Assembly: GCA_025766275.1 (NCBI GenBank)
Contig: JAFKAC010000011.1
Span: 1,240,001-1,304,000, forward strand
Direction of reading: 5' to 3'
Length of the DNA: 64,000 bases
Source of the DNA: Lactarius indigo
Lineage: Eukaryota > Basidiomycota > Agaricomycetes > Russulales > Russulaceae
Both the position numbers and the translations under genes were made by a program. The notes beneath the pieces were generated by a model, which was not told the origin of the DNA, did not search any database, and worked only from the letters and a program-made list of their open reading frames with translations. How positions within the stretch are numbered: position 1 is the stretch's first letter; every line of letters starts with the position of its first letter. This document shows positions 449 to 42,137 of the stretch, piece after piece.

Positions 449-465
449 AGTGAGGCCCACCTCAC

Positions 466-1251
466 TTAATCCGCCACCGATTCTTGCCGCATCCGCTCTG
501 CCTCATCCTCCATCCTAGCCAATATGTTAGCGCGTTCCAACCGGTAGAGACTGTCCTTTTTATCCGCAGTCACCATCTCCCTATCCATCTGCAATTGCCG
601 AATCCGCTTTTCCAACTGGTCTTCGGCGAAAGCGAATTGTCGAAACCGGCGCAGCTCTTGAGTGAGGGTGACATCCCCGATGCGCGCGAGTAGTAAGTCT
701 GTGGGATGTCGGTCACGGAGCATGAAATACTCCTCGTGTGGAATGAAGGCGCGGTTGTTCTTTGGGAGATGGGGAGTGGCGTAGAGGGGTTTACCATAAA
801 GGAAACCCGACCCCGGAGCTAATCCGAGTACGAAGGGGTCTCCTCCCCGGATAACCTGTACGTGGGATGCTTGTACCATCGGTCCGTTGGGGAGTTTGAT
901 CGGGAACGGAATGTAATCGGGTCCTCGATTGACCCGGAACCCTTCAGGGATGACGACCCTGGTTGCTGGGTCTCGTTCCCCCATTGGTGTATAACGAGCC
1001 GCTTGTGCCACGGCGACTCGTCCTCGGTGTAGAGGCCCCCCCGCTGCGTCGACGAGGTAGGGAGTGGCGGCTGGATCTTCAGCGTAGAATTCATGTGTGA
1101 GGAATGCGTGCCTGATGGGGTAATAGTCTCCAAGCTCGTCTTCATCCTCATCTTCGTCCAATACTCCTTCCGCTCCTTCATCATTCGTCGTCGGCAGGCG
1201 GCGATATGCAGTTGCTCCCGCTGCCACCGCGCCGCCGTTTCTTTCCATTCT
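466..1251 (-). other. Post-chromodomain C-terminal module of Pol, unknown function
   Basis: About 260 codons after the TGA. An acidic stretch (DEDEDEDE) is followed by a well-conserved block containing YYPIRH, NPFVLG/DPFVLG-like and LYGKPLYATPHL motifs, then a helical, charged tail. Element 4 carries the same block fused directly to Pol (about 61500-62167) and element 3 carries it at 53103-53800. Codon changes between elements 1 and 4 in the LYGKPLYATPHL stretch fall mainly at third positions, so the protein sequence is under selection. I do not recognise this module; it is not one of the standard Pol domains. Confidence 0.75.
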
Positions 1252-4200: not shown

Positions 4201-5271
4201 TTTAATGCGAATGTTGTTATACCCCCATCTAACGTCAAGTTTAGTGTAAATGTGGGCGTTACTGAGGTCAGTAATGAGATCGGAGATGAGGGGGAGAGGG
4301 TATTGATTGCGGATGGTGACGGCGTTGATTTTTCGATAGTCCTGGACGGGTCGTAGTTTTCCGTCTTTTTTCTTGATGAAGAAAAAGGATGACGCGTAAG
4401 GGGATTTAGAGGGTCTTATGTACCCTTTCTTGAGTTGTTCGTCGATCCATTCGCGCAGCTTCTTGTCTTCCTCTTGTGTCATGGGGTATATTTTGCAATC
4501 AATTGCGTCAGCCGTCCCTGGTTTGAACTCGATAGCGTGATCCCAGGGCCTGCTGGGTGGAAACCTGTCCGATGCCTCTTCACTGAAGAGGCGTTCAAAC
4601 TCTCGGTATTCAGAGGGTAACTCAGCTTTCGTGACATATTGTTGGGCGGCTATGGCGAGATCAGTGGCAGTCGCTCTGATTCGGCATCCCTCCTCGAACT
4701 GTTGTTGTCGTTCACTGGTGATAACGCAGGAGTGTACGACTTCATAGTCGTCGTCCTTGACGGTGGTTGCGGCTACCACTGGCGTTGTTTTGATATAAGG
4801 GTTGGTCAATCGAATGACGATGGGGAGCATATCCTCGTGTATGGCTGCTTGTGACCATTTGATATGTGGGTCATAAATAGCAAGCCAGGGATAACCCAAC
4901 ACGATGTCTTCATTTCCTATGTCTGTGATGAGGAAGCGGATTTCCTTGTGAATGCCTTTAGTTTGGACATCAACGTCGGTATAATGGGTGATACGCCCCG
5001 ATTTATTCTCCGTGTTGTCAATGTTCCATATTTTCTTTGGGATGTCGAGTAATTTGGTCCCAAGTCCCATCCTTCTTGCGAATGACGGTTTCATGAAGCA
5101 GTGGGTTGCTCCTGAATCAACTAATGTGCATATGTCGGCCATGGCGTAACTGGTGCGAATCGATACTGGAACTCTCATAGAACGATAGCGAGTCATGATT
5201 ACACTGTTACAATTAACTGCCCTCACCCAGGCCGATGGGTTCAGGCGTCCTGAAAACCCTCCTTCTTCCAC
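466..5271 (-). CDS. Pol polyprotein of element 1 (protease-RT-RNase H-integrase-chromodomain), one internal TGA
   Basis: Replicates and integrates the element. The frame opens in -1 relative to gag at about 5271. In residues of the open frame: aspartic protease LVDSGAT (Asp52), reverse transcriptase with YMDD at 414-417, RNase H starting at VDASG (Asp566), integrase zinc finger H..H..CAEC (about 787-820), catalytic Asp852, Asp913 and Glu949 (D-x60-D-x35-E), GPF/Y segment near 1078, chromodomain 1137-1187. A TGA at 1257-1255 interrupts the frame after about 1338 residues; the same frame then continues to 466. Element 3 has CAA at that codon, so the ancestor was probably CGA, decayed on opposite strands in the two copies. 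Pol is presumably made by -1 frameshifting. With identical LTRs the element may be young and only just disabled, unless the TGA is read through. Confidence 0.93.
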
Positions 5272-7226: not shown

Positions 7227-7730
7227 GTTACGCTCCACAGGCGTTAGTCCGACTTGGACACGAATCGGCGTAATCGACTTAGCAAAGAATAAGCGAATGG
7301 GGATCACGTGTCAACCCAACGCAGGCTGAACCGGGGTATAGTAACACACGCGGCAGCAAAAGGTAAGAAGAGTATCCCTTGGTGGATACTAGTGGAAGCA
7401 CACTTAGTTGAAGACTAAGGCAGACAAGAGACGAGTCAAGTGGTGGATTGAAGAAGACCAAGATGGGGACTCTTGGTCTTCCGAGTCGACTACTTATACA
7501 GATACACGCGGGCTTTAAAGCGCCGCTATAATAGTAAGTAACCAGTAGCGTAACTAGCTCGAACCCTAGTACAGCTATCCTAGGAATGAGTCATACATGA
7601 GTCACAATCACATGCGAACTACTATGCTGACTGATGCGAAGTAAGAGTCCATGACTAATACTGATACCGGACCGTAGTCATAACCGGTCATGAGTCGTGT
7701 GTGATGAGTCGTCAAGTCCGTACCGTAACA
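7227..7730 (-). repeat. 5' LTR of element 1 (504 bp)
   Basis: Plus-strand ends are TGTTACG and CGTAACA, a 7-bp inverted terminal repeat. Contains a TATA box and the R-region hairpin described separately. The same LTR family recurs, diverged, at 51232-51731 (plus) and 52562-53070 (minus). Confidence 0.95.
7453..7498 (-). promoter_or_regulatory. LTR core promoter: TATA box and hairpin at the predicted start site
   Basis: Minus strand: TATAAGTA starting at 7498, then GAAGACCAAG, a 9-nt loop, CTTGGTCTTC (7481-7453). ATCTTGGTCTT begins 34 nt after the first T of the TATA box, a normal start-site distance, and matches the primer-binding segment. The same spacing is found in LTRs 51232-51731 and 54985-55440. 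Confidence 0.75.
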
Positions 7731-7991
7731 GAAACTATGTCGGCGTTGAGGAGAGGGTGACCCACCCATGCCGAAACTGTATTGGTGTTGAGGGGATGAC
7801 AACCCACTCATACCGAAGCTGCGTTGACTTTGAGGGGAGGGTGACCCATCCATGCCAAAGCTGTGTTGGCTTCGTGGAGAGGGCGACCCATCCATGCCAA
7901 AATTGTCTTGACCTTCGGCAGATAATGGCGCATCTCTTCCGGTCACAAGCTGCCGAGTGTCAACCGATAGTGCAAGAAAAGGGCGAGACAT
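7731..7991 (-). pseudogene. 5' part of a gene encoding 14-residue SFGMxGSPSPQ repeats, cut by element 1
   Basis: Minus-strand frame starting at an ATG (7991-7989), about 70 bp downstream of a TATATA box (8056-8064). After about 30 residues it encodes four imperfect 14-residue repeats of the type SFGMDGSPSPQSQR (42-bp DNA repeats) and then runs into the LTR at 7730. The rest of the gene should lie left of the window. Ser/Pro/Gly-rich repeats suggest a disordered protein; I do not recognise a family. CCGA/TCGG motifs like those of the KDZ island occur in it, so it may belong to that island. Confidence 0.55.
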
Positions 7992-8235
7992 AGCTAGCAA
8001 AGAAGTGGGACAGTTTGATGAGGCGGTGATAAGGGAGACTCAATGCGGAATGAGCCTATATATCTAGATTGCTTATTACGCAAGAGACACTCAAGATTCA
8101 TTACTGTTTTTTGCTGAGTCAGGTTCCAGATTCCAGATCGGTAGTTTCGGCAGCTCGGCAGCATGCCGCTTGTTGACCTCGCTTCAATGTGGCAACGTAA
8201 ACTGCCAACACACTTTTTTCTTACCCACCAACGCC
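7992..8235. promoter_or_regulatory. Divergent upstream region with two TCGGCAGC copies
   Basis: About 240 bp between the minus repeat-protein gene and the plus Zn2Cys6-like gene. It holds a TATATATC stretch (8056-8064) and two TCGGCAGC octamers 8 bp apart (8147-8154 and 8155-8162). Confidence 0.4.
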
Positions 8236-9862
8236 ATGAATTCCCTCCTCCATATCGCCGCTAGGGTTGAGGCCGCTGTTGCAAGCTATGTCAGCGTTCG
8301 CGATGTTGCTGACAGGGCTGAATGGGAATGCCGCTTTGAGGAAGAGAAGGTACGTACTTAATTCAATTGCAGTTTCCATCCAATCCCCATTTGAACTAGG
8401 TCCTCACGACGCGAGAGTTCAGGAGGCTCCGGCGAAATTCGGGGGACCTGCCGGCGCTACACCCAACGCTAGCCGCCTTGTATATTGTCCTCGATGCCAA
8501 GGGGGATTTGTCAGACATCGGCAGGGGGCACCCTTCAATTAACAAGCACAAATATTACCTGCCCAGTGCCAAATTCCCCGCCGACATCTCGCACCTATTG
8601 CCTCCAAATGAGGGCCGCTGGTGGGAGCACCTTGGTAAGTCACTGTTCACCTTTCCCTCAAACACAGTCTAAACCTCCACAGCTGCCGAGCATGGGGATG
8701 GGGGGGTGCCCGCTGGAAATGCAGCACCAAGTCCTACACCGCCACCACCACCACCACCTTCACCTCCTCGTCGGCACCTGCCGAAGGTGACGCTCATCAT
8801 GGGCCCACCTCCTGAAGACTCAGAAGACGAGATGGAGGTAGACCAGCTGGAGGAGGTGAGCAATAATACTTCCCCATTTACGTTTTGTTTCTGATTAACT
8901 CCATAAGTCCCCTGAGCCTCCCTCAATCCACAAGAAGGGAAAGAAGAAGGCAGCTGGTTCGGCAGCTACCTCGAGGAAGCGCAAGCTTACTTCACCACCG
9001 CCGCGCCGTTCCAAGAAGCGGAATGTGCCAGTCCGACTCCCTCCCAAAGTGATAGGAGACGAGTTGGAGAGTGAGGACGACGACGACGACGACGACGACG
9101 ACGAGTATGAATTTTCGGTGCGTAGTTATATATTTTCATTAAGATTCGGCTGAAAGAACTTGGTGATAGTGTGAAAGATGCATCAAGGCCAATGTGCACT
9201 GCGAGCCACAGCCGACAGCTCCCTGCTTGCGCTGCCAAAGCAGCAAGGTGGGGTGCAGCTTGATGCCGCCAAACTCGAAGACAGGCAAGACCGATCGGCG
9301 CCACCTGAAGCCGGAAGTGGTGCGCAGGTACCGCATCGCTCAGTACAAGGTGCGGGAAGGAAAGCAGCCCGCAGCTGCATACAGGAAGACGTCGGAGGCG
9401 TCAGACTCGGCAGCATCGGCCTCAAGGTTGGTTGAGGGGCTGACGCTGTACAGCACATCATCCAACGCAGCGTCTCCAGCTTCGCTGGCCCCCACGGCGC
9501 CTGACTCTCCCACCTCTCCCAACCCCTCTGCCACCGACACCACTGCCACCGCTACCGCCGCTGCAGCTGCCGGTCCCTCCGCTCCTGCTGCAGCTGCCGG
9601 TGCTGCCGATGCCACCCCCGCGATCACTCCCTCCCTCCGTCGGCGCTTGCAACCTGCACGACGCCTTGTGCCAGTTGTGGAGGTGCCAATGCCCTCACAC
9701 TTGGTTCTGTCATCCTCTCGGCAGCGTTCTGGGGTTTCGGCAGCTCAAGCACCTCAGGAAGTTCCTGAGCACAACTCTGCCGAAAGGATCCAACACCTGG
9801 AGATGAGGTTGGCGGATGTCGAGGAGAAATTGGAGGTGTTGATGAAAGGCGGTGGGGCATAA
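8236..9862 (+). CDS. Zn2Cys6-like DNA-binding protein with acidic tract and C-terminal coiled coil
   Basis: Five exons in my reading: 8236-8349, 8400-8634, 8683-8855, 8908-9117, 9170-9862, joined in phase by 48-52-nt introns, giving 474 residues. Exon 3 is Pro-rich; exon 4 has a Lys/Arg-rich (nuclear-signal-like) stretch and a run of Asp. Exon 5 opens with C-x2-C-x6-C-x7-C-x2-C-x6-C (CERC...CLRC...C), the spacing of fungal Zn2Cys6 binuclear clusters, which typically bind CGG triplets; then a basic helix, an Ala/Ser/Pro-rich linker and a heptad-like C-terminal helix near the stop (dimerisation likely). Unusually the zinc cluster lies mid-protein. The ATG at 8236 is the only one in frame in exon 1. 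In this octamer-rich island (TCGGCAGC contains CGG) it is a candidate reader of the motif; that is inference. Confidence 0.72.
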
Positions 9863-10102
9863 AAGGCTGATTAGGCCTTCATGTTTTCTGTTTCATCAAG
9901 TATAAGTTTTTGCAACACATCTGTATATCGACTACGACGAATGGACAATAGATACTACAATGAGGACTTGTGATACCATGAATTAGAGAGTGGATGGAGA
10001 AAGGTGATACAAAGACTGCTAGCGACGCGCTCTCTTCCTAGAATACATATTGCTACCCCTATTGGGAACTTCAGGTTCTAGATACAACAAAGAAGTCATT
10101 AC

Positions 10103-12404
10103 TTACTGCGTTTGCTTGACCCGCTCTGTAGGCCGTGTTGAACGCCCTGAGCGCCGAGTCTCAGGCTGTGCATTTATGGTGGGGTTGCTGACTTTCTGAC
10201 GCTTGGGGGGACGAGTATCGGCAGCTGTGTCGGGAACTGGTCTATGAGTGGTAGATGCCTCGGCAGCTTGATCCGCCCTTGAGCTTCCTGTTGTAGAGTG
10301 GCGTTGTGTAATAATGCGAGGGCGAGGGCGAGTGTGAGGGGGTGCAGCGTTGGGTGGGTGCGGAGATGGATCTCGATCTCCCTGTCCCAGCTCCTCACAC
10401 ACCTCGGCACCATTTCCATGCCTTTGGCTGCTGGTGCTGTGGTGAGGGTGAGGCTTAAGGTGCGGAAAAAGATGGTAAGCATCTCCCATCAACACAAGGA
10501 GCTTACTTACATCGCTTGGACCCCCAGCGCTGTCTTCTTGGCCATTACCGTCAGCCCCCTCTTTGGTTAGAGCATTTCCATCTCCAGGGGTTTCTTCATC
10601 ATTTCCTTGTGCCTGACGCCCCCAGACATCTCTCATCTTGAAACGGAATGGGATCTCGCCGGCAGCTTGCCTTTGCGTCCAGTGTTTGAGCAATGCGTTG
10701 ACATCCTCTTGGCGAATGTGATGGTACTGAGTGAGCGTAACACCGGCCGGCAGGTACTTGGAAAGGATGAAGTCACCTGGGGTCTCTTTCAGTCTGGCCC
10801 ATGGGATTCTGCCCTTTCCCCCGCCCACGGCAATCTCTGATAAGTTCATAAGTGATAGGTCTACTACAAGCTGTAGCTCACTTACTGTACGTCTCGCCCA
10901 TGAACCTGCCGATGAGGTACTTCCTGTACATGAGACCCTCGCGTTCGATGGCTTCCCATCTCGGCAGCATGGGATACCCATTCTTGTCTATCACCAGCTT
11001 GATAATTGGCGTTGCATCCTTCCCTTTTCCCTCCTCTTCGCTGTCATCGCTAGCATGGACTCCTATAAAGGTGCCGCATTAGCACACTTCCCTTGAAGCA
11101 AAATAGACTCCCACCAAAGGACTCGGCAGTCCATCTTGAGAAGTCCTCGACCATTGGGTCCCTCTGCCAGTCTTTGTGTCGCGATTTGAAGGACGTTCCA
11201 CCCAATTCGTTATTGATGTCATGGCTAGGTAATAGGTCGCTAGATTGTAAGTAGATAGAATTTGATACTCACAACATGATCGCCGGTTCGCCATCACTGT
11301 CGCAGTAGCCTGCTAATATGGCAACCCGTACACCATATTGGCGGTACATGGACTCAGAAAAATCTCGCATGGTGTTGATACCATGTTTCCCAAACATCCT
11401 TGATAGGACTTAGTTACTTCCCACACGATAGAGTGCTTGGCATGCACGTACCGCTGCTGCTGCCGAGGGGGAGCCTGTTGCTCTGTCCATTTCTTCACCT
11501 CCGCTCTGTACTTCACCCGTGTATGTTCATCTAATCTCTGGCTGATCACCTTGATGGACTTTTTGTAGCAACCAAGGTAGGCTGCTGATCCCCGCTTCGA
11601 CCCAGACATTTCGAGAGCCATCTTGTCAAGTTCCTTTCGGTGAACATCAACCAAAATGTCGTGATATGTCCATTTTCTGTGACGAAACTGGCATTGTCTT
11701 CACTCCTGTCGGCACCTGTTATAAAGGAATCGGCGTACAAACTACGAAATATGAGAGCGGTGCAACATTGTTGAGGCTAAAGCAAACGTACCATTTCTAC
11801 GCCATCTCTATTGAAGCCCACGCCTTGTCGCCAACTTTTCTTGATGCTGTCAACGGAAACTTGGATGATTTTGGACCGAGAATCTGGGTCGGCAGCTCGG
11901 AATGCAGCAACGTGCCTCTGCAATATGTCGGTTTGTTCATCTGTTAGTTCAATACTCTGGCTTGAGTGTGAAGCAATGTCAATGGAGGGCGTCTGTGTAA
12001 ACAACAAGTGTACCCACCTCGCTTGACCCATACTATCACTTTCTTTGTTTCCGGGAGCTACACCCTCTTGAGTGACCATGTCTAGATCGCCAGGTGCGAT
12101 CGAATCCCTGTCCAAGGTCACATTTTAGCAGTCATACATTAGACCAGAATACACACCTCTCATTTTCTGTGCTACCTCCCTCCTCATCATCGGTAGGAAC
12201 GCCCCTTCGAGCGATGACATGTAAATCACCAGAGATGATTGACACCCTATCGAAAGATAAATCTGAGCAGTTAGACTGCAGGCAAAAATTGTAGTCGCTG
12301 TCATCAGGGTCTTCAGAGTCTGAAGACTCAATGCCTGGCCCTTTGCGCTCAACCTCTTTGGTAGGCTTGGTAGGCTTTTTCATTTGTTTGCTGGTGTTCG
12401 GCAT
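10103..12404 (-). CDS. Hypothetical 627-residue protein, ten exons
   Basis: Minus-strand exons in my reading: 12404-12157, 12107-12014, 11992-11792, 11741-11716, 11676-11452, 11398-11273, 11224-11115, 11062-10886, 10836-10511, 10453-10103. All junctions keep one open frame; introns are about 40-57 nt, and one exon is only 26 nt. The N-terminus is Lys/Ser/Asp-rich. The middle (exons 3-8) is a compact charged region with several Trp and Cys. The C-terminal exon is low complexity, ending in a basic RRSGRS-type tail with a KRQK stretch, suggesting nuclear location. I do not recognise a domain. It is divergently transcribed from the TET/JBP gene across a 184-bp promoter. Confidence 0.7.
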
Positions 12405-12588
12405 CGGGAAGGTAGGTTTTTCAAGAGGGATAGACTTAAGGTCTAAAGGTTCGGCAGCTTTAAGGCATTATATCACGTACCAACTTGTGCTCGGCAGCGT
12501 GGGATTGTTTATCGGGAGCTCAACTCCCACGGAATCCGCATGTATCGGCAGCTAATCATCTTCATTCAAGTCCCTTGACGCTGAGGAA
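12405..12588. promoter_or_regulatory. Bidirectional promoter with three TCGGCAGC copies
   Basis: The 184 bp between the starts of the minus hypothetical gene (12404) and the plus TET/JBP gene (12589) hold TCGGCAGC at 12451-12458, 12491-12498 and 12545-12552, at near-regular spacing of 40 and 54 bp. Confidence 0.6.
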
Positions 12589-13883
12589 ATGCAGGCTTTC
12601 CAGCTCCCTCAGACGTGCACACTCTCCCCCCTGAGTCTGTCCCATCTCTGTGCCGAATACCTCCGTGCTCAGTTCCAATACAAGTTAAACCAGCGCTCCT
12701 CTCAGCCAATCAGCGTTGCTAAGGCACCACGAGCTCCCTTGATGCTGCCGGTGCCTCTAATTTCAGAGCTGGATCGAATTGCACTCACTCTGGTGGATGC
12801 ATTCATGAACCGTGGTTAGTGACACAGACTGGGCACTCAGACATATATCCTGAGACAATCCAAGCAGTGCAGATAAACTGGGATATTACACGTTATGCAG
12901 ATAAGCTCCCAATGAAGCCAAACAATCCAGGAACCCAGGTGTCCAAGCAGAAAGAGGCCAGCCTGAAGAGGCAATATCCTCCGCTGGAGGGTACGGCAGC
13001 TGCCCTTACCATTTCAAGGCCCTGCATTGTCATTGACAACCAAGGAATGATATTGGCATGGCATCTTCCTGGAATCTTGAATGATTCTCGGCAGGTAAGT
13101 TTACTCACCTTGTCCGATCACCGCATCAAATATAATGTATTTTAGGGTGAAATGATGGCAGCAACAGAGAAGCTACATTTTTTGTTGAGCAAGCGTCAAA
13201 GTAGCACATCTTGGCGTGTTGATCCAGAAATATTTCCTTCAGGGCTAGAGGGCCTTCAGGGGGTGATCAACATATCACCTGCATGGTTCCAACAAGGACA
13301 TGAGGTGAATTTTCTCTACCAGTAATGTTTTATCATTCAGCAGCTGATTTCAATTGAGATGGTACAACCACACCCCCAGGTCGGTGCGGCTTTGAGAAAG
13401 CCAGCTGTCTTGGACTGGCTAGATTGCATCACTCAATCCAATTCAATATTGAGTGCAATCCTGGCTGTCATTCATCCGGAGCTTTATAATGCCGGTCAGG
13501 ATACCTTCAAACGGCTAAGAGAATGTGCCGAGATCCAGCCACAGGATGTCCTCCGTCAATGGACATCCGTTTTCAACGGCGTCTCTGTCATTTGTAATCG
13601 CCTCACGCCGCCACATCGGGACGGAAATTCCAGGAAACAATGGTATGATTTGCTGGCGTCTGTTGGGCGCTACCGAAATTGCAATTTGAGGCTGCCGGGA
13701 ATTGGACTCTCGCTGGAGTATGGTCCTGGTTCAGTAGTTGGCCTGTTAGGGGGGACGCTGGAGCATGAAGTGCACAATTTTGAAGGAGAAAGAGTATGCT
13801 ACGCATACTTCATGAGGGATAGAGTACATGAGTGGGCAGGGGTTCCAGGGAATTCTTGGATGAACATAGCCCACTATCAGTAA
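12589..13883 (+). CDS. TET/JBP-family 2-oxoglutarate/Fe(II) dioxygenase (putative 5-methylcytosine oxidase)
   Basis: Four exons in my reading: 12589-12814, 12841-13094, 13146-13304, 13341-13883; 393 residues. The last exon has the double-stranded beta-helix signature of the fungal TET/JBP family: iron ligands HRD (His305, Asp307) in PPHRDG, a QWYDLL strand, LPGIGLSLEYGPG, the third ligand His355 in LEHEV, and the 2-oxoglutarate-binding Arg364 in GERVCYAYFMRD. All ligands are present, so the enzyme may be active. Family members oxidise 5-methylcytosine (or thymine in JBP). TET/JBP genes are known to be expanded in mushrooms and linked to KDZ transposons, as here, where a KDZ transposase gene follows 1.3 kb downstream on the same strand. 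The first intron is only 26 nt, so exon 1 is less certain. Confidence 0.85.
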
Positions 13884-15145
13884 CATAGCGACTGTCAAAG
13901 CTTTCTCCTATATATCTTTTCTTGACTTAGCAAGGCCAGAATTCGATACCACTAGCAATGGGAATCAGTGTAATAGGGCATGGCTATTATGGTATATCTA
14001 TGATTTCGGCAGCTCACTGTTGGTGCAAGGTTTCACAAATACAAAGAAATATTGTTATTTTTGCAGCAGCTCACCAAACGTCTTGAACAGAAATGGTGAT
14101 CCATAGTAAATTACAATCCCTCTCTATGAAAAATCTCTCTCAGCTCCCTCTCCTGAGCTGCCAGACAACACTCTATTTGGGGCATTACCAATGACATCTC
14201 ATTCATTGGCTAGCTACTAACATCAGACCTGGGTGATGCTATGATATAGGGAAGATGTAGTTTCTGGATCTTCCTCCTTAACAGATACCCTTATCGCTGC
14301 AGGATCTGAGCTCTACACTGCTAGGAAACTACATCAGCATATTTGGGCATACCCCCCATGGCGGATCCATGGCTTCGGTAGCTCATTTGTTAGTACGATA
14401 TTTTGCAGATACAACATTATATTGTTTTTCGGTAGATCAGTAAATGTCTCTGGAGCGATAATTCCTGGTAATTGTCCCTCAGCCAAGTCAAACTGTTTGC
14501 CATCTTAATGGGGTGTACTCATGTCACACTCCTAGAGACCATACTATCGAGCCTTGTCTCAATCACAAGAGAAATATCTTGTTTTTTGTCAAGACAGACG
14601 GCATCTGTGTTATCTCTGTGTTATATTGCCGAGGCTGCCGAGATGGTAATATGGTCTAGTACACTTTCGGTAGCTACCAATCAACCAAATGGTAGAAACC
14701 CTAAAATAATGACAGACACCGCTGCCAGGTACCTTGAGAAGGCACACTTTTGCATAAACAGAACTGTTGACCCCAAATTTGTGCTTCACAGTTGAGGATG
14801 AACGAAGCAACATGCTATCAAAGGGTATCTCATGTCATATACAATAGATAAAATATGTGCTACATGAGAGAACAGCCTGAAGTGGTTTAAGTAGTTGCCG
14901 ATAGTAGTGTAAGTGACCACAGGTCCAGTCCAGTCCAGTTTAACAGCACAAAGTGGTTTGATTGGCTGCCAAACCTGGTTTATCTAAGCTACCGACAGTA
15001 GTGTGAGTGACCACAGGTCAAGTCCGGACCGCAAAATCCACAGACGCAATACCCAGCCAGCCAAAGCTGCCGACAGGTTAATTGGAGGCGCTGCTTCTTC
15101 AGGGACATATACTGCAACACACGACACATCCATTCTTAGTTTCCC
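13884..15145. other. Intergenic 1.26 kb between TET/JBP and KDZ genes, diverged repeats
   Basis: No convincing gene. Two diverged blocks resemble each other: 14005-14090 and 14372-14440 (TTCGGCAGCTCA.. and TTCGGTAGCTCA.., each followed by an AT-rich stretch with GCAGATAC-like words). A second direct repeat contains AGTGACCACAGGTC (about 14895-14937 and 14986-15028). TCGGCAGC or its complement occurs at 14006, 14634 and 15066. Confidence 0.5.
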
Positions 15146-18100
15146 ATGGCACACAAGGGTGTGAAGGCATCCAAATTCCTCCACAGAAAGTCTAAGGCTA
15201 AGGTGATTGAGTGGGTGTCCCGAGAAGGCTCCCGAGGAACCAGAAATATCCCGGTAGAAGTAGGCACCTCAACAAATCTGCCGACACCAAGACAAGATGC
15301 TGGCAGAATGGAGATAGACAACCATGGGGCAATATTGGATGAAACCGACCCTGCGTCCATGGATGTTGATGAGACAATCTGGATAGAGGAGCCATTCATA
15401 CCTGAACAGACGAGAGTGGGTTTGCATCCATGCCCTTCTCCAATAGTATTTTACATGTTCTCCCAGTCCCAGCACATATACATGGAAGAATTTATTCCTA
15501 GGATTGGCCCCTACTTGCGTTGCCTCCTCAACTCTGAGGGTGTCCCAGCTATGACAATGTGCCAGGGCTGCATGTCTGCCCCATTTGAGTGGAGATGTAC
15601 CGACTGCTTCCCTGCTCTGGTGCTCTGCAAGGAGTGCTGCCGAAAATCACATAACCGGCTTCCGTTCCACAGGGTTCAGAAGTGGACAGGGAAATACTTC
15701 ATGCCGTCGTGGTTGCGGGAGGTTGGGATATGCTTGCGTCTTGGGCACTCTGGGGATTTGTGCCCAATTCAAAGTGTGCGTTGCCAACCCTTTTATTTTT
15801 TAAATCTCATTCCAAAAAATACAGTCACAGAGGTGCTATGATGCCGACGAAGACTGCCAGGTCGGTAGCCACAGAGAGTATCATGCAGCTGCCGACCTTG
15901 GCTTCGACAGTCCAAAACCTGGGCGTCATGATAAAGAGGGAAATCAAATAATAACTGTCATTGATAGGTCTGGAATCCACGAGATTGGCGTCAGCTGGTG
16001 CTTCTGCCCTGAAGCTCCCGAGCACGACATGCAGTTGATGATGGCAGGGCTCTTTCCAGCCACATTTCGCAACCCAAAGACAGCATTTACCTTCCGGGTG
16101 CTAGAAGACTTCCATTTGGACAATCTTGAATGCAAGACGACTCCAAGCCAATTTTTCAGTCGCCTAAGGAGACTCACAAATGATGAGTTTCCAAATTCAG
16201 TGCCGGTAAGAGAACTTAGCACATCTGCCGATAGCAGACTAATCGGCAGCTTTAGGACCGATATCGGGAGCTGCTGAGGGTCTCCCGGCAGTGGAGAGTA
16301 CTCATTTCCCGGAAGAGATTCGGTTTCGGGTATGGGGAGAATGAAGAACAGAAGCCGGGATCAACAGCTATATTCTGTGCTTTGTGTGCACAACCTGGAA
16401 TCAACCTCCCCGAGGATTGGAGAGAGTTTGAAAATAGGTGTGTCAATAGTCTTCGGTACCTAGTAACTGCCGACATATTACTTTAGCAAAACCCTTTTCA
16501 TGCGGGGCTTCATGATGGATGGGAACTTCCAGGCAGAGCACATGAAGATGAGGAATCCCGAGAATGACATTCCACTCTCTGAAGGTACAGGATTCATGGT
16601 CAGTCAAAAGTCATATGAATTGCACCTGAAATCGGCAGTTGAGAGGCGGCAGGTAAGCACTATCTCTGGTATTTCGGCAGGGGAGGGTTGACACTTGAGC
16701 AGAGATCGACATGCCATGACCACCGTGCAGTAAATAATGTAAACAAGCACGGCGGACACCTTGAATCGACTGGAATTGGTGCCACTGCGTGCATTCATGG
16801 GGCTTTTGTGCCCAATTCTGTTGTTGACTTTCAAAAGGGAGAAGCGTGAGTTCTTATATCTATCTGCATACAATGAGTGAAAATCAACCCTCCAAAAGCC
16901 AGAAGAATATGGACTATTCCATATTCAAGGCCCTAAACTTCAATATGGAGGGGATAGAGGCCGCCCTCATCTGCTATGATGTCATGTGTCAATGGAGTGT
17001 TCATATGAAGGAGAGGGTTATCGGCAGCAACTATCTCAAACTTCCTGACGGCCTGGAGCTCAGGTTGGGCATTGGTCTTTTTCATATCCATGGGCATCAA
17101 GATACCTGCCTAGCTAGGTATTCGCCCAGCTTCATCAAAGGAGGCCGACAAATAGATGGCGAGACCATCGAAACACTTTGGGCTCCACTCAATGAGATCT
17201 CCAGAAGTACGAGGGGGATGTCAACATCGCATCGCAGGGAGGTCATAGATGACCATATGAATGACTCAAATTGGAAGAAGCTTATTGACCTAGGCAAGTT
17301 CCCTCCTACAGATACCACATCAGTGCTTACGTGGGTTGGGTAGTCAATGCTGTGTCTAGACGCTACCGAAAGGCACTTTCGGGAGCCACAATCAGCACGG
17401 CAGCATTTGAGTCCATAAATGTATCGGCAAGTACGGAGAGTGTTGAGGCTTGGAGCGCTGAAGAGGAGTATGCACAAAGGGAGCGAGGTCATGACGTCAA
17501 AGTCATGGACATCTATGACATCAAGAGGAAACAATGTGGGTACAATTACTCTATGATATGTTTGCCTGACATCAGGTTTCAGTCCCATCGCGTGCAGAGA
17601 TACTTCTTGAATTGACACAGAAGGAGACTGAGGGCTCTAGCCATAAGGGACATGCTGTATGGCTTAGCAGTGGATTGAAGATTCAGGAGTCACAGTAGGA
17701 TTCTCGGCACCTTCTCCAGTGAGACATCTGATCGTGATTTCACAAAAAACATAGGTTATCCCTTCAAGCACTGGTGAGGAAGATTGGATCCCATCCAACA
17801 CCAGATCAACAGAGGGATATTACCTTGAAGCGTGCCCGACTCCAAGAAAGAGTTGACGCATTCCAAAAGCAGGCAGCTAACATTCTTCAAGACCCCCACG
17901 ACAGCGGAGATGACTACTGGGACAATGCCCCAAGAAGAGAAACCTATATTGGTGTAGAATTTGATGGCACTGATGAAGGAGAAGACGATGAGGATTGCAC
18001 TTCATCTGCCGAAGAACATGATCAAATGGAGTTTCCAGGAAATTGCTCTACCAATGGCAGTGTGGATGCAGAGTATATCTCGTTGCATCTTCCTTCACAT

Positions 18101-18889
18101 CTTGGACGTGACTGGTGTGATGGAAATTCTGCCGAAGCCCTGGCGAAGGCAGAAATACATCTACGGGAGGGACAACTGAACGATTCCCTACATCACATTC
18201 GCATCTCCCTAGGCCACAAATCTTATCTGTTCAGACAGGATGTTCGTCCGGCACGTACACAAAGACTCAAAACACGCGCTTGGGCAGAAGTACATGCTGC
18301 CGAGTCAACAGTTCAGCATCATGCCCAGGTGTATATTCGTGCCCGGCAGGCAATGGTAAACCTTGGAGCCGGCACCTCTCTCCTTGATCGATACAAAGTC
18401 TTGAGGCGCCAGGACTTGAGTGTCAAGACAAGTGTAATTGCCCCTCATGTACGTGGCCAGCGGAATAAATCATTGCCCTGGTTTTGGACAATGGACATTC
18501 AGAGAGATGCCGACATTGGGGAATGGATGGAAGACTGTGCGTAGCTCTCTGTTCACACACACTCAAACAATATAACGCTCTATACAGTCTACCGAGTACA
18601 TTGGCTTCGGGCAAAAGCTCAAAATATGCGATGGATAGAAGAACTTCAGTGTCTTCAAGTTGAGATGGAGTCCGCTGTCAGGTTTTTTAGGCATCAAGAG
18701 CAATTTTGGCAAGCAAAGCAGGAGCTCCTTGAGCCCCAGTCACAGTCAGGGCATGCTGCGTGGGCAGCCAAACAGAGTGCAATGTGGTGCTCGATGGCTA
18801 TTCAGGCAGAGTCCAGGTTTACTGCTTTACTCAGGAGTAATCCGCCTCCTGAGTTTGCTAAAGTTCCACGGCTGCAACCAAGTAGATGA
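15146..18889 (+). CDS. KDZ-family transposase with CxC2-like cysteine cluster
   Basis: Ten exons in my reading (15146-15775, 15825-16205, 16256-16437, 16487-16652, 16703-16845, 16878-17293, 17344-17535, 17583-17694, 17755-18536, 18588-18889) joined in one frame to 1101 residues, a full-length KDZ protein. N-terminal region has a CxC2-like zinc cluster (CQGC..CTDC..CKECC, about 137-170) continued by the VSWCFCPEAPEHD / FPATFRNPKTAF block. The RNase H-like core has Asp409 (MDGNF), Asp535 (YDVMCQW), the FHIHGHQDTC motif and Glu599 (DGExxExLW). A conserved C-terminal helical region follows. Intron 6 has a GC donor (gcaagt), and intron 5 is short (32 nt). Catalyses cut-and-paste movement of Kyakuja-Dileera-Zisupton elements. 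No frameshift or stop seen, so possibly active. Confidence 0.9.
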
Positions 18890-19387
18890 GTTTAATAACT
18901 TTCGCATAGCGCTGCCGATTAGCTATCGGTAGTCAGTGGGAGCTTAAAACTACAATTCCTTTAGAAATAAATCTGTTTCATTCCCTCATTTACAATTAGG
19001 CCTGCTATATAGTCTCCAACGGAAAGTCAGAGTTATCTCTATAAAGGGAAACAGATTGGATGTTTTGCTTCACTGCAGCTAGCCATGAGTCACCGGTAGG
19101 TGTTTGTGGCTTGGGCTGCCGGTGGAGGGTCTCTGCTAACGACATTCTATTAGCACATAGCTGGCGGGAGGGCTGCCGATATATGGGCTTGTGACAGGCA
19201 TGTGCCACAGGCATTTCCTCACACAAGCAACAGAAACTTCAAATGGAGATGTCTCGGAGTCATGTGCATGATGCAGCATGGGCGTATGCTCACTTAAGAT
19301 CATCAGCACTCATCGGCAGCTCCCGAAGGCAGCTTCTTAAGCATAGAGATTCCATTCCATTTGCGCATCAATTCACATCCGCATACC
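18890..19387. other. Intergenic 0.5 kb after the KDZ gene
   Basis: No gene seen. Contains an imperfect inverted pair of the motif (GCTGCCGATTAGCTATCGGTAG, 18911 onward), plus GCTGCCGA at 19172 and TCGGCAGC at 19313-19320 just before the next gene. Confidence 0.4.
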
Positions 19388-20065
19388 ATGTCCACTGAAA
19401 TCGGCACCTCCATACTAGATGCTGCACTCGCCTACATTGGCCAGAGAATATCCATTATCCTTCTCAAACCTGCCGATATTGACAAAAACTATATCGGCAG
19501 CTTACACAAGGAAGTGGTAAGCATTACTCAATGTGCTAGGAATATCTTTTCACCAGAAATTGGACTTAGCTTGCTGCTGTATGGATTATTGGCCTTCTGT
19601 CGTCTAGCGGCAGCTCCCCTCAAGTGCCAGAGTCGGTCAGGATTGCCTTTCGTGGGTTTTCAGACATTAGGAACCCAGGGTCCTATATGGCTCCCGAAGC
19701 AAACCAGCAGCTAGAGGGAATGTTCCAGGCAGCTGGCATTCCTCAATTAAATTTTACAGAGTGGTGGAAATTTGAAGGGGAGACAATGAAAGAACCATTC
19801 AATGTCCGTGAGGAGGTAGTAGTGGGGTTGCTGCGTGCTCTAGAGATGGTATGTACCTCGTTTCATTTACTGATCCTCAAATTAACCAGTGCTGTAGCAG
19901 GAAGCTAGCACGCAACTTCGCGCTAGAATAGTAGGGAAATTCAAAGAAGCACAGGAACTGGTCAAGGAAATTGAGAACCAGGTTAATTCCCTTTACGATA
20001 CGATCTCCAATGGTTTTGAGAGTCTTGAGGGAGAGGCCTCTCGTTTGGAAGAAAACATGGGTTAA
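19388..20065 (+). CDS. Small hypothetical protein with C-terminal coiled coil
   Basis: ATG at 19388 opens a 43-codon exon ending at a GTAAGC donor. Further coding segments follow: one from about 19624 (PESVRIAFRGFSDIRN...) to a GTATGT donor near 19851, and a last exon of about 55 codons ending TAA at 20065, rich in Glu/Lys with heptad spacing (coiled coil). I could not find one acceptor that joins exons 1 and 2 in phase, so the model is incomplete or the gene carries a frameshift. No family recognised. Confidence 0.45.
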
Positions 20066-20100
20066 TGAGAATTATATTTCTATGTCTTCGTGAAAATCAA

Positions 20101-20478
20101 CTACAGTTTTCCATCCCCCCCTGCTAAGACATCTACCAAAACCATCTCATTTTCCAAATCACTCAAAAGGTCTTCCAATTTTTCTTTCCTTATCACCTTC
20201 CACTTTTTCAGGAAGCCAGCATTAGATCTGGCTTTTGAAAGCCATTCCGCAGAAACACCCTTTGGAGGGTCCTGTGTTGTGTTAGCTTCGGCAGATCAGA
20301 TGACATTCCAAATCACCTTATCTATGAGCTTTTGAATCACAGGTTGTAAGAGCACCACATTTTTTGGGACCTCACTAAAACCTCCGTTGGAGGGCCCTGT
20401 CATTTCCCTCTGATGTCGACCTGCATCAGAATCTGTTTCACTGAGGAATGAAACACCCTTCCAGAATTCAGAGCACAT
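20101..20478 (-). CDS. Short minus-strand open segments, hypothetical (fragment?)
   Basis: Two adjoining minus-strand segments: a 60-codon frame from 20478 (MCSEFWKGVSFLS...) and, past a possible splice near 20290, a Lys/Glu-rich segment ending in TAG near 20101. The join is inferred. Both have protein-like composition (FLKKWKVIRKEKLEDLL). Could be a small gene or a relic; no homology recognised. Confidence 0.3.
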
Positions 20479-20631
20479 CTACAGGCATTGGTTTAGTGCC
20501 CTGGTTAGGCATTAGTTTGATCCACACACTGCCTCCTTAAAGTTGTTCTCCTCTAACTCAGAGACATGCTTTTGTATCTCTGAATCGTTTCCCTGCATGG
20601 TAGATGGAAGCATGTTTCAGCGACACAATCA

Positions 20632-21060
20632 GGTGCTGCCGATAAGCTCGCAGTGACCCAATAAGTTTCTGCCGATAAACTTACAATGGCCCAATCAGGT
20701 GCCGCCGATAAGCTCGCGGTGGCCTATCAGTTGCTGCCCATAAACCTGTTGCTGCTGATCAAGTTGCAGTGGCCCAATCAAGTGCTACCGATAAAATTAC
20801 AATGGCCCAATCAGGTGCTGCTGATAAACTTGCACCAGCCTAATTAGGTGATGCCGATAAACTTTGCGGTAGCCCAATAGCCCAATCAGGTGCCGCCGAT
20901 AAGCTCACGGCAGCCTAATCAGATAATGGCCATAAGCTTGCCATGGCCCAATCAGCAACTTTTGATATATTTGGAATGGTCCAGTCAGGTGCTACCGATA
21001 AGCTTGTAGCAGCCTACCCGGTGATGCAATAAACTCATAGCTGCCCAATCAGACGCTGCT
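20632..21060 (-). repeat. Tandem array 1: about 12 diverged 33-bp units
   Basis: Plus-strand unit approximately GTGCTGCCGATAAACTTGC then AGTGGCCCAATCAG, repeated with substitutions. Read on the minus strand the unit is ATTGGGCCACTGC..ATCGGCAG, which matches the sub-unit of array 2 (plus strand). The arrays therefore carry one unit in opposite orientation. Confidence 0.85.
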
Positions 21061-21152
21061 AGGAGAAATGCTGTGATGGCCTGTATTATATACCCACACT
21101 AGCTGCCGACAGAACCCGAACGCTCTGATAGGACAGTTGACAATATATCTGC

Positions 21153-22611
21153 ATGGGCCATGATTACAGACCTGCATATGCGCTCTGTACTGCCTCCCCC
21201 TGGATCTACTACCAGCTCTATTCCATGTCAACATCCATGCTCGGTCTAACCAAAGATGAACAAACTCTTCACCACCATGCCGCTATGCTCAAAAATGGGC
21301 TAGAAGCATACCGCACATGCACACACCAAGATGAAATAAAGTGGAAGAATTTATTGAGAGCACGCTTGGTATCCTAGTGTGCTTTCCATCTGCTTCTACA
21401 AGCTAAGCTCAGATATTTCTAGAGAGAATCGATGAACTATTTTGTTGATGCGAATACAAGAAGTCCCACACCTCCCCGTGTTCACCCACTCCTATTGAGC
21501 CTTGCTTTGATGTTCAACGAGTCTGAAACCTCCCTGAACATGAGAGCTGTCTCTGAGGATAATCCAAAGGTGTTAAGTAGCAACTATTATACTTCACCCA
21601 AAGATCTTCCACCGCTGGACATACATCTACCTGGTCAAAATGGTACGGTACTGTTCTCTGATGTTCATGGGTCTCTACTTACATCGGCAGCTTCCTGTGG
21701 CGAATGTATGGTACCTAAGCTTTAAGAAGGTTCGGCGATGGTAAGCAATGTAGCAATGAGTATCCCGTCGGCAGCTTCCATTCTGGAATCTATGGCACCT
21801 GAACCTCAAGACGATTCAACAGAGGTTGACCATTCAATAGTCACTATTCCTAGCAATGGGAAGAAGCAGCAGTGTGCTGCTGGTGGCGGTCTTCGGAGTG
21901 AGTCCCATATTTTATCCCACAGATGCACTGAGAAATAAAATTGCTGCCGAAGAAATTGTCACAAGATCGGCAGAAAAACAGAAAGCTGCCGATGACTGTA
22001 CTAAAGCAATCACCGGTACTATGCCAAAGAGACAAGATAATGGAAACGTAAGTGATTGGATTGAAACATAAAGCTGGCCCAAAGATCCAAGATCTATTAT
22101 TCCTGCAGGTTCTACACGACACTCCAAATACCTGTAGTTCAAAGGTAGCTAGGCTACGAGATAAAGCCAAGGGTAAGATGGCTAAGCACACAAACCCGCC
22201 AAAGGGAGATGGGCCAAATGTCAGGGACGAGGGGAAGCAGTCCAAGACAGTGTTTATAAAGGACAAGCCTTCGCCCCAAGAAGAGAACGCCGATGAAAGC
22301 AGGGAGGAAGGCAATGAGCCAGCAATCTCATGTGTGTTCACTGAAGTTTACATCTGGTTTTACACTCATCGTGCATACTGTCAGTTCGAGGCGAAGACAA
22401 CAATAGTGTCGTCAGAGACCTAGAAAAAGAGGTCCAGGCTCTGAAAAGTAGATGCGAGGGGCAAGACAAGATGATTGAGGACCTGAAATCGAGATGTGAG
22501 ACACATGAGAGGGTCCTTGAGATGCTTCGGCAGGAAATTGTGCAGCTTCATGACGGCCAGAAGACTCTAAATACCATGTATGATGGAAAGAGCTATGATC
22601 TCATGCCATAA
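21153..22611 (+). CDS. Hypothetical coiled-coil protein between the two arrays (multi-exon, model incomplete)
   Basis: Start at 21153 or the in-frame ATG at 21225. Exon 1 ends at 21368 before GTATCC and encodes a helical segment (DEIKWKNLLRARL). Further coding stretches in varying frames: 21530-21720, 21738-21895, about 21925-22047 (KIAAEEIVTRSAEKQKA) and 22110-22330 (Lys/Glu-rich). A last exon at about 22390-22611 forms a clear coiled coil (DLEKEVQALKSRCEGQ, then RVLEMLRQEIVQLHDG) ending in TAA. I could not fix all junctions. No family recognised. TCGGCAGC or its complement occurs five times inside (21684, 21768, 21943, 21985 and, just upstream, 21102). Confidence 0.5.
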
Positions 22612-22685
22612 CTATAGTTCAAGTAGACCCTGTGGCTATTGCGAGTGTAATCAGGTTCATCAGCATCAATCATACATGCCGATTA

Positions 22686-24625
22686 TGGGCCCACACGAGA
22701 TATATGTTCGGCAGCCGTCGCTACCTACTGTGGGCCATTACAAGCTAATCGGCAGTAGCACAAATGCCTTCCTATGGGCCCAGACATGTATATTGTCAGA
22801 TACATGATAGGTTGAATGCGAGCTCATCGGCAGAATATACAAGTGGCCATCGTAGGCCAATACAAGCTAGTTGGCAGAATACATGCATGGCTGCCATGGG
22901 CCCACACGAGATATATGTTCGGCAGCCGTCGCTACCTACTGTGGGCCATTACGAGCTAATTGGCAGTAGCACAAATGCCTTCCTATGGGCCCAGACATGT
23001 ATATTGTCAGATGCATGATAGGTTGAATTGGGCCAATGCGAGCTCATCGGCAGAATATACAAGTGGCCATCGTAGGCCAATACAAGCTAGTTGGCAGAAT
23101 ACGCGCATGGCTGCCATGGGCCCACACGAGATATATGCTCGGCAGCCATCGCTACCTACTGTGGGCCATTACGAGCTAATTGGCAGTAGCACAAATGCCT
23201 TCCTATGGGCCCAGACATGTATATTGTCAGATGCATGATAGGTTGAATTGGGCCAATGCGAGCTCATCGGCAGAATATACAAGTGGCCATCGTAGGCCAA
23301 TACAAGCTAGTTGGCAGAATACGCACATGGCTGCCATGGGCCCACACGAGATATATGTTCGGCAGCTGTCGCTACCTACTGCGGGCCATTACGAGCTAAT
23401 TGGCAGTAGCACAAATGCCTTCCTATGGGCCCAGACATGTATATTGTCAGATGCATGATAGGTTGAATTGGGCCAATGCGAGCTCATCGGCAGAATATAC
23501 AAGTGGCCATCGTAGGCCAATACAAGCTAGTTGGCAGAATACGCGCATGGCTGCCATGGGCCCACACGAGATATATGCTCGGCAGCCGTCGCTACCTACT
23601 GTGGGCCATTACGAGCTAATTGGCAGTAGCACAAATGCCTTCCTATGGGCCCAGACATGTATATTGTCAGATGCATGATAGGTTGAATTGGGCCAATGCG
23701 AGCTCATCGGCAGAATATACAAGTGGCCATCGTAGGCCAATACAAGCTAGTTGGCAGAATACATGCATGGCTGCCATGGGCCCACACGAGATATATGTTC
23801 GGCAGCCGTCGCTACCTACTGTGGGCCATTACGAGCTAATTGGCAGTAGCACAAATGCCTTCCTATGGGCCCAGACATGTATATTGTCAGATGCATGATA
23901 GGTTGAATTGGGCCAGTGCGAGCTCGTCGGCAGAATATACAAGTGGCCATCGTAGGCCAATACAAGCTAGTTGGCAGAATACGCACATGGCTGCCATGGG
24001 CCCACACGAGATATATGCTCGGCAGCCGTCGCTACCTACTGTGGGCCATTACGAGCTAATTGGCAGTAGCACAAATGCCTTCCTATGGGCCCAGACATGT
24101 ATATTGTCAGATACATGATAGGTTGAATTGGGCCAATGCGAGCTCATCGGCAGAATATACAAGTGACCATCGTAGGCCAATACAAGCTAGTTGGCAGAAT
24201 ATACACATGGCTGTCATGGGCCCACACGAGATACATGTTCGGCAGCTGTCGCCACCTGCTATGGGCCATCACAATATCATTGACAACAGCACAAGCTTGG
24301 TCTTATGTGCACATCGTCGGCCTACACAAAGCTCTTGTTCGGCAGCTTTCCTGCTTGCCCTGGGCCATTACAATTGCATCGGCAGCAGCAAATGCCAGTC
24401 CTATGGGCCCATACGTGTATATTGTCAATGACATTGCAATTTAATTCTGGGCCAATACAAGCTCATTGCCAGATACCCCCCATTTGTCCTGGGCCTATAC
24501 ATGGACCTTGTGCAGTTTCCCTATATGTGTTTGGTTGGCCCATACGATGCCTATACAGAATACATATTCATGGGCCCATACATCTATATGCGCTTAAGTC
24601 ACACAATGGGCCCACGTGGGCTTTG
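22686..24625 (+). repeat. Tandem array 2: 220-bp units, each of five about 44-bp sub-units
   Basis: From 22686 to about 24290 seven to eight near-identical 220-bp units (identical landmarks at 22960, 23180, 23400, 23620, 23840 and 24060); the first is 9 bp short. Each unit splits into five sub-units of 42-46 bp starting TGGGCC and carrying GGCAG or TCGGCAG about 15-20 bp later. Diverged sub-units continue to about 24625. High identity of the large units suggests recent amplification or homogenisation. Confidence 0.92.
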
Positions 24626-24899
24626 CCGATGCGCTCGTGAAATTGTCACGTGGGCTCTGCCGAGTACAATGACCCAAATCTGCGTCATGGGCTCACTTCC
24701 CGACGAATGGCATGCACGACCTGCAGTTTGCGCCGAAATTTAGAGTTACGGTACCGTATGCTCACCATTCTTAAGGCAAATGCCGGCGGCCCAAATCCGA
24801 ACCTCTCGTGGGGACGCGGATTGTGCGCATATCGCTACAGTCCGCCGAGTCCATTACCATACTATTACATGGTCGCTGTTCCATTTGTTGTCTTGTATT

Positions 24900-40735: not shown

Positions 40736-40770
40736 TTCTTCTTCTTCTTCTTCTTCTTCTTCTTCTTCTT
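40733..40770 (+). repeat. (CTT)n microsatellite
   Basis: About 12 uninterrupted CTT repeats directly after the zinc-knuckle relic. Confidence 0.95.
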
Positions 40771-42135: not shown

Positions 42136-42137
42136 TA

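Follow-up and report, generated by a model that had tools for sequence, protein, structure and literature searches.

The transposons closest to the one described here are the TET+ Kyakuja elements of Agaricomycetes, with Russulales among the orders named for them; as presented in the main text of the report on these elements, they combine a KDZ transposase with a TET/JBP dioxygenase, are flanked by 7-bp duplications and have 5'-CA..TG-3' ends (Kojima 2025, PMC12730594). That main text uses none of the terms subterminal, tandem repeat, binding site and octamer; therefore, a motif spread over the body of the element seems to be undescribed there. A second related system is that of the VANDAL elements of Arabidopsis, in which, according to the published accounts of VANC (Hosaka 2017, PMC5735166; Sasaki 2023, PMC10398659), an accessory protein acts through a short word that is specific to the family (nine bases in VANC21) and tandem arrays, and the entire element is affected. 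The published speculation on transposon-encoded TET proteins is that their action is non-target-specific. Short words are also repeated in other systems: En/Spm (CACTA) transposons carry many copies of the short TnpA site near their ends, in both orientations, and the DNA-uptake sequences of Neisseria and Haemophilus are self words found across coding and noncoding DNA.

In this study, we analysed a 64,000-nucleotide stretch of the Lactarius indigo genome (the window), which contains a TET+ KDZ transposon and an octamer dispersed over its whole length.

Results

Structure of the element

The island consists of a KDZ transposon that carries a TET/JBP gene and is here called family A (Table 1). 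Its left region is common to 21 other places, 20 of which begin at 7731-7732, and its right end is common to 24 places, the window included, reaching 24694 or a few bases past it. An uninterrupted copy (C24:1396711-1417679) is 20.97 kb long and carries the 7-bp duplication AGGACAT on both sides, the 7-bp target-site duplication being read from this copy alone; it runs leftward into a 212-bp array at the point where a Gypsy element interrupts the window copy. The extent given in the initial annotation is thus amended: the element measures about 21 kb when uninterrupted, has arrays at both ends and finishes at 24694, its left end in the window having been split off by the Gypsy element. The 5' terminus, CACATAATGG, has the CA of Kyakuja; however, the 3' terminus is ..GGGCTC instead of ..TG, and for this reason we file family A as a TET+ KDZ element and only provisionally as Kyakuja.

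Table 1. Features of the window (positions numbered from its first letter)
Feature	Position	Strand	Remarks
Gypsy element interrupting family A on the left	1..7730	.	Direct repeat 1-300 = 7299-7598; not part of the system
Family-A TET+ KDZ transposon, part within the window	7731..24694	+	Shared ends; left end cut off by Gypsy
Octamer set	7949..24386	.	45 exact copies: 35 dispersed, 10 in array/edge; consensus TCGGCAGCW
G1, Zn2Cys6-like 474-aa protein	8236..9862	+	Exons 8236-8349, 8400-8634, 8683-8855, 8908-9117, 9170-9862 (model)
Locus G2	10103..12467	-	Several frames conserved in family B; five fragments scanned, no Pfam match above cut-off
TET/JBP dioxygenase gene	12590..13883	+	Gene start inferred; HxD (HRD) retained
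KDZ transposase gene with CxC2 cysteine cluster	15140..18932	+	Limits approximate
33-bp repeats	20618..20864	.	Units with the word (exact once) or near variants
220-bp tandem array by the right end	22685..24269	.	About one word per unit; TGGGCCCA palindromes
Right target-site duplication, expected place	24695..24701	+	Deduced from where the element ends (24694) and from the 7-bp duplication flanking the C24 copy; left partner beyond the window

Within the transposase gene, PF18758 (KDZ) scored 109.1 bits at 16828-17343 (cut-off, 26.6) and PF18803 (CxC2) scored 91.8 bits at 15804-16274 (cut-off, 27). PF12851 matched the TET gene with 66.6 bits (cut-off, 34.9), and the nearest solved relative was CcTET (7vpn/8jkk; E about 3e-25), a relationship from which we infer that the family-A enzyme would be of the AG type.

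The 17 homologues of G1 found at E <= 0.001 (12 of which entered the alignment) are all from Lactarius. The initial annotation had suggested a Zn2Cys6 reader of the octamer. A six-cysteine pattern, C-x2-C-x6-C-..-C-x2-C-x6-C, is present in family A (CERCIKANVHC..CLRCQSSKVGC) and in the second TET+ family, B (CSRCTHAGVDC..CIRCKEKKQQC); however, PF00172 scored 14.6 bits on the G1 exon, under its cut-off of 21, and did not match the full protein, and the closest solved relative, Pho7, whose site is TCG(G/C)(A/T)xxTTxAA, was weak (E 0.13). Such a reader is therefore possible but unproven. The single-sequence AlphaFold model of the G1 cluster (mean pLDDT, 62.0; pTM, 0.30) was not used. By eye, the C terminus of G1 appears coiled-coil-like. 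Some octamers fall in alanine- and serine-rich coding parts of the gene.

An octamer dispersed over the whole element

A scan of the whole window identified 45 exact copies of TCGGCAGC/GCTGCCGA on both strands and none in the ~47.5 kb outside the interval that they span. The initial annotation had counted 33 copies in 8147-21992, where we found 34; one more lies at 7949 and ten belong to the 220-bp array and its edge (22708-24379). Its observations that one-base variants are common and that Gypsy DNA lacks this density were also confirmed, with 66 variants per 14.8 kb of family A versus 26 per 44 kb of background (totals added by hand) and no exact copy in the Gypsy element. The word is present in the arrays at both ends of the element, and in the body it occurs about once per 400 bp in spacers, introns and exons alike; the copy at 8682 spans a 3' splice site in the G1 gene model, and the TET gene is without an exact copy. 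The ninth base, following the octamer, is T or A at 30 of 35 sites in family A and at 31 of 37 in family B. Apart from this base the flanks are unrelated, and the idea that the word is part of a longer repeat was rejected on that basis.

With the right array excluded, the word occupied 21 of the 30 500-bp bins of family A, so that, unlike CACTA-type sites, it is not confined to the ends; the best word of two background stretches of the window occupied 6 of 31. Two 8-kb pieces were examined from each of families A and B, and in them the word filled 12 to 14 of 16 bins; 60 order-2 Markov simulations of each piece gave, for the maximum over any 8-mer, a mean of 4.3 to 4.5 and never more than 7. 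Chance and base composition were rejected on these grounds. The gaps between copies are near random (coefficients of variation, 0.85 and 0.78, versus 0.97 simulated), and regular, nucleosome-like spacing was rejected.

These positions also bear on the proposal that G1 activates the genes of the element, the octamers being enhancers or promoter elements. The 122-bp spacer separating G2 from the TET gene does contain two octamers and the 5' region three, and most Zn2Cys6 proteins are transcription factors; however, the copies are placed almost at random, occur in exons and far from gene starts, and a density above two sites per kilobase over the whole element would not seem to be needed for promoter function. 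We consider this explanation improbable.

The tested coding frames (5,937 nt, with approximate limits) contain 13 of the 35 dispersed copies, whereas 2,000 synonymous shuffles gave a mean of 0.77 and a maximum of 5. The coding octamers use all three phases on one strand and two of three on the other; a peptide repeat was rejected by these mixed phases together with the shuffles. That the word has no function, having arisen by chance, low complexity, peptide repetition, micro-duplication or mutation bias, is an explanation to which its GC-richness and the copies in alanine- or serine-rich G1 coding sequence lend something. It is nevertheless very hard to credit, given the bin simulations, the synonymous shuffles, the mixed phases, the flanks unrelated except at base 9, and the fact that CpG transitions alter the word at a roughly ordinary rate (see below), yet its density is level between the two families.

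Turnover between families A and B

Family B is 66 to 84% identical to family A at the DNA level in alignable blocks; its top word is the same, TCGGCAGCW, at a similar density (37 in 15.5 kb, compared with 35 in 14.8 kb). Over ~9.3 kb of alignment, the shared octamers represent 9 of 18 in family A and 9 of 21 in family B, against a background retention of 18.7% for all 8-mers (P 0.0025; P 0.012 versus words of the same composition). Nine octamers are found only in family A and 12 only in family B, and 11 of these 21 are one base off in the partner (hand count). Octamer positions turn over between the two families while the density stays level.

Association with TET+ elements

All 30 fetched TET loci (of 39 hits) hold 3 to 9 octamers per 3.4 kb; because these include the window copy and other near-identical copies, they represent only three lineages, A, B and D. 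Lineage D matches A and B at ~68% identity along 0.8 to 1.0 kb at the TET gene and has 7 octamers per 3.4 kb: four in the aligned part, of which one coincides in alignment column with an octamer of B and none with one of A, and three in the neighbouring 1 kb. A partial KDZ exon lies 11 kb from the D TET gene, perhaps in the same element; a 1-kb stretch there had no octamer, and the exon is 93% identical to that of family A.

Among the listed part of the 175 KDZ matches, the families read were A and B together with part of D and five families that lack TET, leaving aside the frames of 358, 213, 537 and others; TET-lacking here means that PF12851 gave no hit within the 8 kb read, with one copy per family. 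In these 8-kb stretches the five TET-lacking families had neither an octamer nor any word exceeding the simulated bin maximum, i.e., no body-wide word. The initial annotation had anticipated enrichment in other KDZ copies, which was borne out for TET+ copies and failed for the TET-lacking families; the word as a general KDZ feature was rejected. The KDZ exons of the TET-lacking families are 62 to 66% identical. The association with TET comes from a single genome and may reflect one evolutionary event, as A and B share a KDZ clade separate from the TET-lacking families and the partial exon near D is close to that of A. In three of the TET-lacking families, different CGG-containing words form clusters next to the KDZ gene; the CGG core that these share with the A/B word is suggestive, the number of families being small. 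The G1 cysteine pattern was not found in any of the five TET-lacking loci or in the 3.4 kb of D.

One alternative is that TCGGCAGC, in terminal and internal copies alike, is a site of the KDZ protein with no role for TET, for example in compacting or synapsing a 21-kb element or in competing out partial copies. The word in both terminal arrays is in keeping with this, as are the clustered CGG words of the three other KDZ families, which have no Zn2Cys6 pattern in their 8 kb, and the hAT-derived CGGBPs, described in the published account as transposon-derived CGG binders whose motifs match subterminal regions. Against this, the TET-lacking families, with related KDZ exons, show no body-wide word, although length is still a confounder, since by visual impression, with unmapped ends, these elements appear shorter. 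On balance, we regard transposase sites alone as a rather unlikely explanation.

CpG change and methylation

Of the 32 differences that recent copies show at the word (13 in A, 18 in B and 1 in L079), 31 carry a CpG transition, a count that is unpolarised and drawn from copies that are not independent. The rate of change at the word was 0.076 in A, versus 0.083 for other CpG-containing 8-mers, and somewhat lower than theirs in B (0.105 versus 0.146). Rates this near to those of ordinary CpG suggest methylation of the sites in many copies and no clear protection; visible protection of the word from CpG decay was not found. The CpG depletion of A and B (0.60 and 0.61) lies within the range of the TET-lacking KDZ families (0.42 to 0.63). 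The suggestion that the word is a methylation target is sustained only insofar as CpG transitions account for nearly all differences at the word among recent copies.

Genome-wide distribution

The whole genome contains 5,741 octamers, compared with 2,800 for the reversed word, an excess of about 2,900. Contig C1 was listed over its first 1.19 Mb, apparently for both strands; there, 62 of 82 TCGGCAGCW are in family B DNA, 58 in one B element and four in a decayed fragment (hand count; the stretches of the element between word clusters, at about 434-440 kb and 460-484 kb, were left unread). The remaining 20, in ~1.14 Mb outside elements, are at background level, with ~19 expected from the reversed control (hand count). 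The word is thus over-represented within the element and rare outside, as for VANC; the equal density away from KDZ loci that would have told against an element-specific site was not seen. TCGGTAGC showed no genome-wide excess in total (2,088, versus 3,660 for the reversed control), and 11 of its occurrences among the C1 places listed fall within the B element (hand count).

A host silencing, replication or chromatin protein that reads the word, to the benefit of the element, is quite improbable in view of this background level and of the lack of the word in the 8 kb read from each of five other KDZ families of the same host.

Discussion

The initial proposal of a binding or self-recognition site for an element protein is supported by the enrichment in coding sequence, by retention and turnover between A and B, and by presence in TET+ elements and absence from five TET-lacking relatives. 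Judging from the sequence, a protein very probably reads the word, and its gene probably lies on the element. TCGGCAGCW would be the recognition site of a DNA-binding protein of TET+ KDZ elements; G1 is the foremost candidate, at a little under an even chance, and the KDZ/CxC2 protein, somewhat unlikely in this role, would be the alternative. The tandem-array sites near both ends resemble ordinary subterminal repeats, and those in the body would let the bound protein label the entire 21-kb element as self. It is envisioned that this protein most likely recruits the TET dioxygenase of the element, directing oxidation or demethylation at its own copies and not at the host genome. That aiming TET is the purpose of the word is plausible, with the odds falling slightly short of even, and much the same holds for the best overall explanation, a predicted site of an element-encoded protein that marks self and recruits TET. 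More tentative is the fuller model of a body-wide barcode, exons included, through which G1 as adaptor would aim TET at its own copies, with selection acting on word density more than on position.

Several observations count against this explanation: the near-ordinary CpG decay at the word, the subthreshold Pfam score of G1, the absence of its cysteine pattern from the 3.4 kb of D, the octamer-free TET gene and KDZ-exon kilobase near D, CpG depletion within the TET-lacking range, the avoidance of coding regions by VANC sites, and the derivation of the TET association from one genome.

How transposon TET enzymes find, or miss, their own element is a question for which the word offers a direct and cheap test. 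If a reader were confirmed, the system would represent a natural form of sequence-guided DNA demethylation and a case in which selection for a DNA tag operates through protein-coding exons.

Among known systems, the three clustered words of the TET-lacking families match the En/Spm TnpA pattern better than family A does, since TnpA sites are subterminal and family A is also covered between its ends. DNA-uptake sequences differ in setting and reader and serve as an analogy only. Family A resembles TET+ Kyakuja in gene content, duplication length and 5' CA, and differs from the elements of that report in its 3' end. With VANDAL/VANC it shares an accessory protein, a short family-specific word, tandem arrays and an effect, predicted for family A, on the entire element, and this precedent supports an element-encoded, motif-guided anti-silencing reading. 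VANC21 sites, as described in PMC5735166 and PMC10398659, are noncoding, with much weaker binding in coding regions, whereas the exons of family A carry the word; and, unlike VANDAL, family A brings its own dioxygenase, which the bound protein is predicted to guide.

Results

The octamer TCGGCAGC, counted on both strands, occurs 45 times in the window, exclusively between 7949 and 24386, and no exact copy was found in the rest of it. By hand count, 34 copies lie at 8147-21992 (33 in the initial annotation), 1 lies at 7949, and 10 lie within the 220-bp array or on its edge, so the density described through the KDZ island and its confinement there both hold. In dispersal the octamer ranks far ahead of other words, occupying 21 of 30 500-bp bins in the island's TET-positive transposon family (family A), compared with 6 of 31 for the best word of two background window stretches. 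In 8-kb pieces of A and of a second TET-positive family, B, it fills 12 to 14 of 16 bins; simulated maxima averaged about 4.5 bins and never exceeded 7. The pattern is genuine and non-random. The site is nine bases long, TCGGCAGC being followed by T or A in 30 of 35 copies in A and 31 of 37 in B. One-base variants, which had been reported as common, are likewise over-represented, with the smallest excess for changes at positions 4 and 6, as is expected for a binding site.

Coding frames (5,937 nt) contain 13 octamers, versus a mean of 0.77 and a maximum of 5 in 2,000 synonymous-codon shuffles. A and B are collinear, and their aligned part (about 9.3 kb) holds 18 octamers in A and 21 in B, with 9 shared. 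Seen from A, retention is 50%, compared with 18.7% for all 8-mers (P 0.0025) and 23% for words of the same composition (P 0.012); the unshared copies have turned over, the partner often carrying a one-base variant. Excess retention together with turnover indicates that density is kept while many positions change, the pattern predicted for a diffuse binding-site requirement.

Features of the KDZ element and related loci
Feature	Location	Detail
TET/JBP gene	island	PF12851, 66.6 bits
KDZ transposase	island	PF18758, 109.1 bits
CxC2 cluster with KDZ transposase	island	91.8 bits
G1, Zn2Cys6-like gene	island, 8236-9862 (+)	
Gypsy element	1-7730	inside left part of KDZ element; 1-300 and 7299-7598 identical
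Right element end	24694 or a few bases beyond	common to 24 places, including the window
C24 copy of A	C24:1396711-1417679	flanked by 7-bp duplications AGGACAT
TGGGCCCA repeats	22686-24607; C24:1396791-1399377 (L076, L077)	in or beside both terminal arrays
Right flank	24681-24900	97% match to C225:264215-264431
L077	C24:1393501-1396700	adjoins left end of C24 copy
CpG-poor stretch	40001-55000	CpG observed/expected 0.40; neighbors 0.93-1.0
B element	C1:433170-484787	58 TCGGCAGCW (hand count)
CTCGGAC clusters (L071)	C1:1008501-1016500	both sides of KDZ gene

The island holds further genes besides TET/JBP, KDZ, and G1. CcTET is the nearest solved structure to its TET part, and the 17 homologues of G1 found (7,987 candidates scored) are all from Lactarius, one being near-identical and from Lactarius indigo. 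The window copy is broken off at 7731 by the Gypsy element; the C24 copy extends leftward into a 212-bp array, most units of which carry the word. Most fetched A loci are at least 99% identical to the window copy across the matched part, which indicates that the family has recently been active.

The CpG observed/expected ratio is 1.0 in the Gypsy element versus 0.6 in the KDZ element, which suggests that the Gypsy insertion is recent. The palindrome TGGGCCCA (19 copies in the window, one at 8800; 1 in B's 20 kb; hardly any in the body) is a second word, subterminal only. The C225 match, which begins 14 bp inside the element end, may stem from duplication of the flank or be what an excision left behind. 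L077 resembles retroelement gag/pol parts by eye; these KDZ elements may therefore lie in repeat nests. The CpG-poor stretch, with its TpG/CpA excess, is probably old, methylated, and repeat rich.

In B (L069 and L070), the octamer ranks first among 8-mers, its 37 copies occupying 24 of 32 bins. All 30 fetched KDZ loci, every one A or B, carry 2 to 8 octamers, and all 30 fetched TET loci carry 3 to 9; both sets contain near-identical copies as well as the copy in the window itself, which leaves lineages A, B, and D as the independent units. Lineage D, also TET positive (L039 and L081), has 10 octamers in 4.4 kb; 11 kb away, 1 kb of sequence at a KDZ exon that may belong to the same element has none. 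Enrichment in other KDZ copies thus extends to A and B but not to five TET-lacking families (L071-L075; no PF12851 match within the 8 kb read; one locus each, KDZ exon 62 to 66% identical to A), which contain neither the octamer nor any body-wide word in the 8 kb searched in each. Three have clustered words of their own, all with CGG: CTCGGAC in L071, and TCCGGAA (L072) and ACGGAA (L073) beside the KDZ gene, mainly on one side, with periods of 14 bp and, by spacing, about 33 and 24 bp, respectively. These clusters are presumed to be subterminal.

Genome-wide, there are 5,741 octamers versus 2,800 for the reversed word, and 3,643 TCGGCAGCW versus 1,509. The first 1.19 Mb of contig C1 has 82 TCGGCAGCW; apart from those in the B element, 4 lie in a decayed B fragment (L079) and 20 elsewhere (hand count), a background density. 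Word-free stretches within the B element look like insertions.

Discussion

The binding-site reading put forward initially is well supported by the coding excess, the 9 of 18 A copies kept in B, and the level density. We favor the view that an element-encoded protein reads the word as a self-tag and would thereby bring the element's own TET to the element body; TET targeting is plausible. G1 is the first candidate reader: it goes with the TET module and, in both A and B, displays a six-cysteine pattern; it also weakly matches Pho7, its nearest solved relative, whose 12-base site starts with TCGG or TCGC. Next in line comes the KDZ protein, given that clustered CGG words are also present at KDZ loci lacking the G1 pattern.

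Of 32 within-family differences at the word, 31 involve a CpG transition; the rates are 0.076 in A and 0.105 in B, versus 0.083 and 0.146 for other CpG words. This indicates that the word's CG is methylated in many copies, without clear protection. CpG depletion of A and B equals that of several TET-lacking loci. All the evidence for the TET association comes from a single genome and a single KDZ clade, and TET-positive elements look longer than TET-lacking ones.

TET-positive Kyakuja elements are described in the 2025 survey by Kojima (PMC12730594), which speculates that AG-type TET acts non-target-specifically. None of the literature matches listed describes a body-wide motif for KDZ or TET-positive transposons, but the collection searched omits most subscription papers, so absence is not proven; the octamer as a whole word appeared in one unrelated paper. 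Element-encoded, sequence-guided anti-silencing is already known, and the octamer system would be a variant of it. The closest working model is the VANC protein of VANDAL elements: it recognizes a word of nine bases, and its binding strips methylation from the whole element (PMC5735166 and PMC10398659). There the word is described as non-coding, whereas in A the coding frames carry it too.
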